Position numbers and translations under genes: made by a program
Shown: positions 4,978-32,782 of the stretch, in pieces
Layout: every line of letters starts with the position of its first letter
Numbering within the stretch: position 1 is the first letter of the stretch
Notes under the pieces: model-generated
Seen by the model: the letters and a program-made list of their open reading frames with translations, nothing else
What the model was told of the DNA's origin: nothing
The model's database searches: none
NCBI RefSeq assembly: GCF_000621865.1
Contig: NZ_KK211359.1
Span: 216,592 to 280,591 of the forward strand
Origin: Pseudobutyrivibrio sp. MD2005
GTDB lineage: Bacteria; Bacillota; Clostridia; Lachnospirales; Lachnospiraceae
Length of the DNA stretch: 64,000 nt
Reading direction: 5' to 3'

Positions 4978-6618
<1,641 letters not shown>

Positions 6619-6637
6619 AATCTAATACACGCATTTT

Positions 6638-6670
6638 AAGCCTTCGACCACTTTGGCCGAAGGCTTTTTT
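6638..6670 (+). terminator. Intrinsic terminator of groESL
   Basis: A 9-bp stem AAGCCTTCG (6638-6646) with CGAAGGCTT (6658-6666), extended in the loop by CCA/TGG, followed by TTTTTT to 6670. A degenerate mirror copy of this hairpin lies at 7363-7384, at the far end of the large palindrome. Confidence 0.9.
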
Positions 6671-6676
6671 ATATGG

Positions 6677-7349
6677 CAGGCCACAGGCCACCGCCATTTT
6701 ATCCCAAGGCCCTGCCTGCCTTTTATACTTGAGTTGCCCCGGCCCTTATATTCAGACATGTACCACAGTTGACTTGCAAACATTGCAAGAATATTTTGTT
6801 TTTCTAATGGGCAATTTAGACAAGCTTATTTTCATGTGTTTTTTGTAGGCCTGTACAGTTAGAAAAAATGTTTTTCTTTGGCGGACACAATTTATAAAGC
6901 TAATTGTACTTCTTAGACTAGAGGGGGCTTGGTTGATTTTGGAGCGCGCTTAGTAACATAAAAGCAGGTTTTGCAATATATAGGTATTCGCCGCCACGGA
7001 CGGCGGCGAAAGTGCGTAAGCGACAGGACGTCGCATGGAGCACGGTACCTAGATATGCAAAACCTGCTTTGTCATGTTACTTAGCAAGCGTAATATGAAA
7101 CCAAGCCCCCTTAGTCTAAGAAGTACACTAAAAAACTTTCGTGTCCGCCAATTTAAAAACATTTTTTCGAACAGTTCATTCCTCAAAAAACACATGAGCT
7201 ATGTCTAAATTTGTCCCATTGAAAAACTAAAAATATTCGCAAAATTGTTTGCCAGCCAACTGTGGTACATGTCAATACAAGGGCCGGGGCTTTGTAACAT
7301 GGGCGGGCAGGGCCTCAGAAGCTTCGGGGAGGCGGTGGCATGTGGCCTG
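6677..7349 (+). repeat. Large fold-back element A (candidate structured RNA or cruciform)
   Basis: This gene-free stretch is one imperfect palindrome. Supporting arm pairs are 6677-6695 with 7331-7349 (18 of 19), 6755-6771 with 7257-7273 (17 of 17), and 6961-6975 with 7056-7070 (15 of 15), with further partial pairing between. The centre holds two small hairpins: a 9-bp stem 6987-6995/7002-7010 with loop ACGGAC, and 7012-7015/7040-7043 plus 7020-7024/7030-7034, making a three-way junction. The core, about 6782-7247, is shared in reverse orientation with element B at 32151-32761. No plausible ORF is present. A TTGACT-N17-TATTTT box at 6769-6797 could be a + strand promoter. I do not recognise a named family. 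Confidence 0.75.
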
Positions 7350-7362
7350 GGTGGAGAGGGAG

Positions 7363-7384
7363 CCTTCGGGGGAGTGGGCGAAGG
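7363..7384 (+). terminator. Weak terminator-like hairpin closing element A
   Basis: CCTTCG (7363-7368) pairs with CGAAGG (7379-7384), followed by ATTTTG. It is the mirror-image counterpart of the groL terminator hairpin at the other end of the palindrome. It could end a transcript of element A, but the U-run is poor. Confidence 0.35.
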
Positions 7385-7413
7385 ATTTTGAAAACTTTTA
7401 TTTTAGATTTTAG

Positions 7414-7442
7414 TTTAATTTAACGGCTGATTATGGTAGAAT
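7414..7442 (+). promoter_or_regulatory. Putative extended -10 promoter for degV
   Basis: TAGAAT (7437-7442) is preceded by TGG (an extended -10) and, 17 bp upstream, by a weak -35, TTTAAT (7414-7419). It is the only promoter-like sequence seen between element A and degV. Confidence 0.5.
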
Positions 7443-7476
7443 AATCGTCGGTGTTTAAATAATTAAGAGGTGATAT

Positions 7477-8349
7477 ATGAGCAAAGTTGCAATACTTACA
7501 GATAGTAATAGTGGAATTACTCAGGCGCAGTCGAAGGAGCTCGGAATTTTCGTAGTTCCTATGCCTTTTTATATTGATGGTGAGCTTTACTACGAGGATA
7601 TAGATTTAACTCAGGAGCAGTTTTTTGAAAAGCTGACACAGGGCGGAGAGATTACAACTTCGATGCCTATTACTGGTAATCTTATGGATTTGTGGGAGAG
7701 CATACTTAAGGACTATGACGAATTAGTTTATATTCCTATGTCTTCTGGATTATCTTCATCTTGTGCTACTGCAAAGATGCTTTCAGAGGATTACAATGGT
7801 AGAGTTGTAGTTGTTGATAATCAGCGTATTTCTGTTACACAGAAGCTTTCAGCTATGGAAGCTAAGAAGCTTGCAGATATGGGCAAGAGCGCTCAGGAAA
7901 TTTGCGATGCATTAATGGAGATTAAGGATAAGTCTACAATCTACATTACAGTAGATACTTTGGAATACCTTAAGAAGGGTGGCAGACTTACTCCAGCGGT
8001 TGCTGCAATCGGTTCTCTTCTTAAGATTAAGCCAGTTCTTTCAATTTATGGAGAAAAGCTTGATAAGTTTGCTACAGCCCGCACTGTTAAGCAGGCTAAG
8101 CAGATTATGATAGATGCGCTGAAGAAGGATATGAAAAATGTCATTAAGACTGATAATCTTGATGATGTTATCATTTCTATAGCACATACACAAAATCAGG
8201 AAGCAGCGGAAAAGTTTAGAGAAGAACTTTTACAGGAATTCCCAGGTAAAGAAATCTGGATTGATCCGTTATCACTTTCAGTTTCATGTCATATTGGACC
8301 AGGCGCTTTGGCTTGTACAGTGACAAAGAAATTGATTGATATAAATTAA
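7477..8349 (+). CDS. DegV-family fatty-acid-binding protein
   Basis: A 290-residue DegV protein. The family binds a fatty acid between two alpha/beta domains; FakB members present the acid to the kinase FakA so that exogenous fatty acids enter phospholipid synthesis. Visible motifs are TDSNSGIT at residues 8-15, ITTSMPITGN near 58-67, YIPMSSGLSSS near 88-98, and the second-domain LKKGGRL near residue 165. No fakA gene is nearby, so a FakB role is inferred from family only. SD AGAGGTGA precedes the ATG. purA follows 22 bases later. Confidence 0.9.
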   Translation: MSKVAILTDSNSGITQAQSKELGIFVVPMPFYIDGELYYEDIDLTQEQFFEKLTQGGEITTSMPITGNLMDLWESILKDYDELVYIPMSSGLSSSCATAKMLSEDYNGRVVVVDNQRISVTQKLSAMEAKKLADMGKSAQEICDALMEIKDKSTIYITVDTLEYLKKGGRLTPAVAAIGSLLKIKPVLSIYGEKLDKFATARTVKQAKQIMIDALKKDMKNVIKTDNLDDVIISIAHTQNQEAAEKFREELLQEFPGKEIWIDPLSLSVSCHIGPGALACTVTKKLIDIN

Positions 8350-32125: not shown

Positions 32126-32150
32126 CCCAAAACTTAGAAACTGTTCCATG

Positions 32151-32761
32151 TTACCATTCACAGTTACTACAAAGGTGGAAGCTCCTCACCCATGTAGGTC
32201 GCTGCCTTGCGCACACAGCGTGATTTTGCGAATATTACTGTTTTTTCTTATGGGCCAAATTTATGCATCACACATGTGTCTTGTTGCGGAATGAACCATT
32301 TTGAAAAATGTTTTTTAGGTGGCGGACACTTAAGTTCTTTATGTACTTCTCAGACTGAGGGGACTTGGTTTCATATTCCGCTTGCTAAGTAACATGACAA
32401 AGCAGGTTTTGCATATCTAGGTACCGCGGCACATTCAACATCGTGTTTTAAGTGACCGCTTGCGCTGCCGTCCATGGCAGCGCATACCTATATATTGCAA
32501 AACCTGCTTTTATGTTACTAAGCGCGCTCCAAAATCAACCAAGTCCCCTTCAGTCTAAGAAGTACAATTTATACTATGCTGTGTGTCCGCCAACAAAAAA
32601 CTTTTTTCAAAATTGTACAGGCCTGCAAAAGACACATGTAAATAAAAGATGCAGAAATGGCCCATTAGAAAAAACGTAATATTCTTGCAATGCGCTGTGT
32701 ACGCAAGGCAGCGGCCTACATGGGTGAGGAGCTTCAAGATAAGTCTTACTGTGAATGGTAA
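32151..32761 (-). repeat. Large fold-back element B (reverse-oriented copy of A)
   Basis: A 611-bp imperfect palindrome without a credible ORF. Outer arms 32151-32164 and 32748-32761 pair perfectly over 14 bp, and the arms 32180-32236 and 32678-32735 pair with few mismatches. The core, about 32221-32692, read on the minus strand, matches element A at 6782-7247. The shared features are the same arm-specific sequences, the 15-bp AAAGCAGGTTTTGCA stem, and a central junction. The central hairpin is a 9-bp stem (32461-32469/32476-32484) whose loop on the minus strand is ATGGAC, against ACGGAC in A. The second central hairpin is 32426-32432/32452-32459 extended inward. The flanking stems share little sequence with those of A but are self-complementary. 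Confidence 0.75.
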
Positions 32762-32782
32762 ACTATTCCTTTGTTAATCTTA

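Follow-up and report, generated by a model that had tools for sequence, protein, structure and literature searches.

Covariation of bases between self-complementary arms is commonly read as the mark of a selected RNA, and where pairing is selected at the RNA level, G-U intermediates should exceed A-C mismatches. RNAs that sequester CsrA (CsrB/RsmZ type) carry GGA in hairpin loops, and the loop consensus of CsrA-type sites is ANGGAN. Bacterial MITEs and fold-back elements include Correia/NEMIS and RUP.

The TwoAYGGAY motif (RF01731) is listed as a probable RNA, probably not cis-regulatory, in the available part of Weinberg et al. 2010 (PMC2864571). In Rfam, it has the type 'Cis-reg' and a model that spans the 168-nt tip only. 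In the available part of PMC4333381, TwoAYGGAY matches the CsrA motif, and CsrA binding or sequestration is proposed. The available literature passages that name TwoAYGGAY or RF01731 contain no mention of mobility. Likewise, a search of openly accessible main texts for TwoAYGGAY as a MITE or fold-back element, or for inverted repeats of the genus, returned nothing relevant. As far as the accessible text of PMC8604942 goes, template switching in quasipalindromes yields homogenised arms and inverted spacers. In that of PMC8794818, G-U makes up 78.5% of two-step compensations in rRNA, a measure that differs from the outer-arm count given below.

The locus presented here lies between groL and degV in a 64,000-nt stretch of the genome of Pseudobutyrivibrio sp. 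MD2005, which is called the window in its full length. Its tip matches the whole RF01731 model, but here that structure caps a repeated fold-back element 600-750 bp long, whose copies lie in either orientation. Like MITEs and fold-back elements, the family is non-coding, multi-copy and intergenic, and one subfamily has inverted-repeat ends and 8-bp duplications. Unlike them, it has much longer arms, outer arms that vary, an interior that is turned round and complementarity that reaches into host DNA. With CsrB/RsmZ-type RNAs it shares GGA in hairpin loops and a host that has CsrA, but the putative CsrA sites number one or two per copy, and the copies are dispersed in dozens and have no orientation bias. 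The patterns of homogenised arms and spacer inversion are those of quasipalindrome template switching, although the arms published in the accessible parts of PMC8604942 and PMC8794818 measure a few to tens of bases, and here they reach up to ~375 nt at dozens of sites. The ordinary side of the locus is that its tip is in a known Rfam family and that MITE-like repeats are common. What looks unusual is a known 'RNA' as the apex of an apparent mobile fold-back element, together with the evolution of the arms.

We consider it probable that the groL-degV element is an old, much altered copy of a fold-back element spread by transposition-like insertion, whose arms were kept complementary mainly by copying from arm to arm. 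If a mobile fold-back element has the RF01731 tip as its apex, the annotation of the motif and the tests of its function must change. Moreover, outer arms that covary without an excess of G-U, in copies lying in either direction, call for caution in covariation-based RNA discovery, and dozens of copies per genome would amount to a natural archive of template switching across hundreds of bases.

Structure of the groL-degV palindrome

The gap between degV and the left flanking gene, which we take to be groL as named in the initial annotation and as recognised from its sequence, measures 858 bp (6619-7476). It had been described as having no gene, and with a minimum ORF length of 50 aa only two ORFs, of 53 and 54 aa, were found in it. 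The description of the gap as one large imperfect palindrome was borne out by RNA folding of 6630-7390. The 761 nt form 291 base pairs of a possible 380, of which 14 are G-U, and the folding energy is -413 kcal/mol, whereas 20 dinucleotide-shuffled sequences gave -220.5 +/- 5.2 (z -37). The minus strand folds as well (-414.2). The arm pairs quoted initially are all present: 6961-6975/7056-7070 at 100%, 6677-6695/7331-7349 at 95%, and the pair of 17 matches in 17 inside a longer pair, 6755-6782/7246-7273 (93%). The outer arms are also GC-rich, as had been noted, with a G+C content of 0.51 and 0.62 against 0.376 for the window; that of the inner arms of this copy is 0.33.

The palindrome extends beyond the limits first given to it, and self-complementarity runs to 6638/7388. 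The outermost complementary pair, 6614-6625/7403-7414 (12/12), takes in the groL stop codon; it is AT-rich and could be due to chance. The hairpin 3' of groL is presumed to be the groL terminator taken into the palindrome. It is mirrored in a degenerate inverted form in the right arm, and terminator-like hairpins were seen by eye at comparable places in several relatives. The scan of 6550-7500 listed four promoter-like sites (1.3 in shuffles) and two terminator-like sites (1.5 in shuffles), the hairpin at 6638-6666 not being among them. The coordinates of all features are presented in Table 1. The second copy of the family in the window is better preserved than the groL-degV copy and has recognisable ends.

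Table 1. Features of the groL-degV palindrome and of related copies (positions in the window)
Feature	Position	Strand	Remarks
groL, left neighbour, outside the element	4984..6618	+	544-aa ORF ending GMGGMY
Outermost self-complementarity	6614..7414	.	12/12 end pair, perhaps chance
Putative groL terminator, hairpin then T run	6638..6666	+	in the left arm; inverted counterpart at 7362-7384
Left outer arm	6671..6780	+	C-rich (51% GC), copy-specific; unmatched in BLAST against the other MD2005 loci compared
Left inner arm, common to other copies	6781..6936	+	median start of homology 6781
Apex, junction with two hairpins	6937..7096	+	RF01731 TwoAYGGAY, 81.8 bits
Apex hairpin 1	6989..7008	+	loop ACGGAC at 6996-7001, CsrA-type ANGGAN
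Apex hairpin 2	7020..7034	+	loop AGGAC at 7025-7029
Right inner arm, common to other copies	7097..7246	+	median end of homology 7245
Right outer arm	7247..7388	+	copy-specific, G-rich, pairs with the left outer arm; outer end with the inverted copy of the hairpin
Second copy of the family in the window (L021)	32150..32762	-	613 bp; ends GTTACCATTCACAG/TTTACCATTCACAG; apex 32373-32534 (-)
Exact 8-bp target duplication, copy L019			TAGGGATT
Exact 8-bp target duplication, copy L038			AATAAATT
Exact 8-bp target duplication, copy L045			TCTTACTC
Exact 8-bp target duplication, copy L047			AAAAATCC
8-bp duplication with one base offset, copy L044			AGAGCTGG

Identity of the apex

The initial annotation knew of no named bacterial RNA or repeat of this shape and sequence. 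For the tip this was refuted by the search against Rfam, in which 6937-7096 scored 81.8 bits with RF01731, TwoAYGGAY (gathering score 43, E 2.2e-12), over the full model (1-168 of 168). The name covers 160 of the ~750 palindromic bases, and the long arms lie outside the Rfam model; the finding is thus real, but its central part already has a name. Of the two AYGGAY loops expected in RF01731, the loop of hairpin 1 (ACGGAC) fits and that of hairpin 2 (AGGAC) is one base short.

Copy number and distribution among genomes

The element is also a dispersed repeat. In MD2005 (G000; 3.09 Mb, 26 contigs), 49 copies scored by the RF01731 model were found, in both orientations, and two further copies with assembly gaps were left unscored by it. 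Runs of N occur within copies or beside the tip (L057, L058 and L027), as expected of long hairpins, so the copy counts may be too low. BLAST of 6630-7390 matched 43 of the 48 other copies, with up to 87% identity.

Among 61 genomes of relatives (MD2005 included; stricter filters), RF01731 was found in 29: MD2005, 26 of the 28 others of the genus and two of the 32 outside the genus. In a draw of 398 genomes from the phylum, 51 matched at E<=0.001 and 34 of these exceeded the cut-off; the matching genomes often hold several copies, although at most six candidates were scored per genome. A 19-base piece of the apex matched 15 contig stretches, 12 from other taxa and three from Pseudobutyrivibrio (2/3 hold RF01731). 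Plasmids and phages had no match to 6770-7260, plasmids had none to the left outer arm, and viral contigs had no exact match of the 19-base piece.

Ten copies from other genera or families were analysed, and in all ten the arms scored above shuffles (three shuffles each). Eight of them have arms that reach just 25-54 nt past the model; in the remaining two this length is 85 and 165 nt, the latter with a low score. The copies of genome G032 measure ~240 bp by eye. Because the copies examined outside the genus are more compact, the long-armed form looks like an elaboration within this lineage.

Genome G036 contains inverted pairs of TwoAYGGAY elements a few hundred bases apart (L095 and L096), the tips being much alike in L095. 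In genome G179, near-identical terminator-like hairpins in the same orientation flank a compact copy (L137), perhaps as a long target duplication.

Ends, target duplications and corresponding sites in relatives

The end-bearing subfamily has the ends GTTACCATTCACAG ... CTGTGAATGGTAAC, spaced 607-613 bp. Exact abutting 8-bp direct repeats are present in four of the 11 copies with both ends recognised, and a fifth has a duplication offset by one base (Table 1); the other six have neither an exact nor an offset 8-bp duplication. The GTTACC ends are absent from the groL-degV copy, in which no direct repeat is visible by eye, so that its ends give no grounds for classing it as a MITE. It is tied to the family by its apex and inner arms alone, and its own mobility would be drawn from that of the family.

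Analysis of the degV loci of 26 relatives revealed no RF01731 match above the cut-off and no intact copy. The groL-degV gap, measurable in 21 of these 26 relatives, is 79-99 bp in 12 and 170-428 bp, with other sequence, in nine. In G011, the contig starts in a truncated TwoAYGGAY-type arm upstream of degV (L089), which shows 72% over 173 bp to a copy elsewhere in G011 itself. The place in G001 that corresponds to copy L053 is without a copy, and two of 26 copies in four relatives lie at places that are occupied in G000 too. These two sites, L002/L126 (BLAST matches on both flanks) and L023/L110 (a BLAST match for the left flank, the right one matched by eye), could reflect shared ancestry or repeated insertion. 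Given the copy number, the 8-bp duplications and the absence of an intact copy at the relatives' degV loci, the family appears to behave like a non-autonomous transposable element. According to the reading that we prefer, a dispersed non-coding fold-back element with the TwoAYGGAY structure as its tip would have spread through the genome by transposition-like insertion, the transposase would have been supplied from elsewhere, and the ends and 8-bp duplications would survive in the better-preserved subfamily.

The groL-degV gaps of some relatives (L069, L074, L075 and L086) contain a different inverted-repeat element, AATAGACATTC ... GAATGTCTATT, around a terminator-like hairpin (by eye).

Likeness of the arms within and between copies

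The full palindrome is missing in five of the 48 copies measured (L005, L007, L040, L046 and the N-gapped L027). With these and L028, which is cut by a contig end, set aside, the arm counts were based on 43 of the 49 copies. Homology between copies starts at a median position of 6781 and ends at a median of 7245 (range 6769-7257), and pairing goes on to 6638/7388. In the outer arms, defined as 160-225 nt from the tip, the median identity between the left arm and the reverse-complemented right arm of the same copy is 0.77, whereas between copies it is 0.55, alike for left-left, right-right and left-right comparisons. The within-copy identity exceeds the left-left identity between copies in 877 of 903 pairs. 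The inner arms have an identity of 0.78 within a copy and of 0.73 (same side) or 0.67 (opposite side) between copies, and the within-copy value is the higher one in just 503 of the 903 pairs. The outer arms are thus self-complementary and copy-specific; 52 of the 86 have no match to any other copy's locus at E<=1e-4, and 34 were matched. Their mean GC content is 57%, that of the inner arms 36-37% and that of the flanks 40%.

The homogenisation of the arms includes multi-base changes: copy L038 carries a multi-base and length variant on both arms, and the same variant is present on one arm in L047 and L057 (by eye). The pattern, including the 877 of 903 pairs, is that of arm-to-arm copying, and selection on DNA or RNA pairing is compatible with it; the outer arms would look no different under DNA-level selection for pairing.

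The two types of ends stand around the tip in opposite orders in six and five of the 11 end-bearing copies (by eye; these 11 overlap with the 11 of the duplication count), and L047, which has the second order, keeps its exact target duplication. Moreover, at the shared site L023/L110 the tip is oriented oppositely in the two species, and the arms are different. The two end orders indicate that the interior has been turned round relative to the ends. This is the pattern of an inversion between the arms, and homologous recombination between the arms would do likewise.

On the tip's strand, the ratio of G-U to A-C mismatches in the outer arms is 70:84 (p 0.29). For copies between co-directional genes, a stricter count on the transcribed strand gave 38:28 (p 0.27), composed of 20:15 in 14 copies and 18:13 in 15 copies, and for convergent copies the ratio on the tip's strand is 6:11. 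In the inner arms it is 110:67 cells and 43:31 minority states (87:42 in another count), and in the core 44:11 cells, yet 6:6 states; the inner-arm and core counts are taken from the predicted structure, and the folding program favours G-U. As G-U exceeds A-C near the tip, a constraint at the RNA level may be possible there.

The pattern of the arms seems to fit repeated arm-to-arm template switching better than selection on RNA pairing, given that there is no excess of G-U in the outer arms, that both end orders occur and that complementarity enters the flanks. The arms would then be held complementary mainly by copying from arm to arm during DNA replication, through template switching or hairpin conversion, and selection on an RNA stem would not be the main force on the long arms. 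This copying, or else recombination from arm to arm, would also turn the interior round.

CsrA and the orientation of the copies

All 49 copies of MD2005 have GGA in the loop of hairpin 1, and each of the 42 copies drawn from other genomes (part of those fetched) has at least one GGA loop; as the search model itself contains GGA loops, these counts are no independent test. Also, CsrA is found in 49 of the 51 TwoAYGGAY genomes against 236 of the 347 others (by eye; Fisher p 4e-6), where 17 of the 51 lie below the Rfam cut-off and kinship is handled solely by the count of families, which is 25 of 25 against 107 of ~140 (total derived from family numbers; p 6e-4). Together with the matches to the CsrA motif reported in the available part of PMC4333381, these results agree with a structured CsrA-binding RNA as proposed there, whose stem would be kept by selection on RNA pairing and whose copies would form a distributed CsrA sponge. 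We regard this explanation as unlikely. Hairpin 2 has GGA in its loop in only 18 of the 49 copies and in one of the 11 end-bearing copies, so that it is missing from 31 and 10 of them, respectively. Simple ORF calling placed 30 of the 45 classified copies between co-directional genes, 10 between convergent and five between divergent ones (three of 48 remained unclassified), and the 30 co-directional copies are oriented 15 vs 15 to their genes. The outer-arm G-U ratios on the tip's and the transcribed strand, given above, also speak against this explanation, as do the equally good folding of both strands and the turning round of the interior, which would move the GGA loops to the other strand.

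One copy (L050, L129; G000 C1:229517-230200) lies downstream of the only csrA found in G000. In 27 other members of the genus, the csrA loci, some of them cut by contig ends, had no RF01731 match above the cut-off. This adjacency, having no counterpart at csrA in the 27 relatives, was treated as a coincidence, and it likewise weighs against the CsrA-binding RNA explanation. The region 3' of csrA in the relatives is too variable to reveal an ancestral empty site for L050. Copies in both orientations and their absence from the relatives' csrA count against a local regulatory role. The GGA hairpin would be able to bind CsrA if transcribed, and in view of the GGA loops and the co-occurrence with CsrA the tip may have a CsrA-binding role.

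Another GC-rich repeat is located 3' of csrA in several species of the genus (L198, L204, L207, L209 and L216).

Complementarity reaching into flanking DNA

Complementarity continues past the usual length of the element. More than 235 nt from the tip, in-register stems of at least 9 bp are present in 16 of 43 copies compared with 107 of 1806 mismatched left-right pairings (p 1e-9). In L042, a shared 16-mer covers the stop codon of the gene on the left together with the last part of its reading frame; the flank pairing of L022 and L026 takes in part of a terminator-like hairpin (all by eye). The outer stem of L018 is the element's own end repeat, set slightly further out, which means that some flank pairings are not host DNA. 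L002 (G000) and L126 (G016) occupy a common site, where the G016 palindrome extends to both stop codons and its sequence is far from that of G000. We infer that flanking DNA was copied across the element, as well as the direction of this copying. The arm copying proposed above would in this way extend the arms outward into host DNA, with the flanking DNA as the donor.

Arm copying would be unneeded if the outer arms were the remains of older palindromic elements or targets that were hit by insertion of TwoAYGGAY, since insertion into terminators or palindromes would leave palindromic flanks, and several other palindromic repeats do exist in the genus. This explanation is improbable, as the 52 outer arms mentioned above are unmatched at the loci of the other copies of MD2005, the ends of the element enclose the variable arm in the end-bearing copies, and the flank pairing includes the end of a neighbouring ORF (L042) and part of a terminator-like hairpin (L022 and L026). 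A large, possibly bidirectional, terminator or a 3'-end structure of the groL mRNA grown by ordinary selection is very improbable, because, although the presumed groL terminator lies within the palindrome and the 10 convergent copies, some reaching stop codons, would suit it, the other classified copies are co-directional or divergent, the degV loci of 26 relatives have no intact copy and the stem is far larger than a terminator needs.

Returning to template switching between the arms, a broader picture can be put forward only tentatively, and we find it possible rather than probable. TwoAYGGAY elements might be widespread mobile elements with a CsrA-binding RNA tip, whose arms are continually rewritten by template switching during replication, which would lead to outward growth, mirrored terminators and stop-codon regions of the neighbours and a turned interior. 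They would then be a case of natural, genome-wide, long-range switching in bacteria.

Search for a partner transposase

The search of MD2005 and of the genus established no transposase with the ends of the end-bearing subfamily. The IS66 of G000 was rejected as a partner, as its ends differ (GTAAGCG type). Ends of the form GTTAC(C/T)ATTCACAG occur in 23 of the 29 genomes of the genus, where they include those of other small repeats. One of these genomes, G003, has a further palindromic repeat, 192 bp long, that shares these ends, GTTACTATTCACAG (L147), and a similar end spacing is found in many genomes of the genus.

In one of its copies in G003 (L144), a 1.7-kb IS4-family element has the repeat GTTACTATTCACAG/CCGTGAATAGTAAC at both ends; the other copy (L143) reads as an insertion into this repeat, with ATTCACAG duplicated over 8 bp. 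The IS4-family element was tentatively judged more likely to be a guest than the source of the repeat. Its transposase had no match at E<=1e-20 in G000 and was found in eight of the 29 genomes of the genus.
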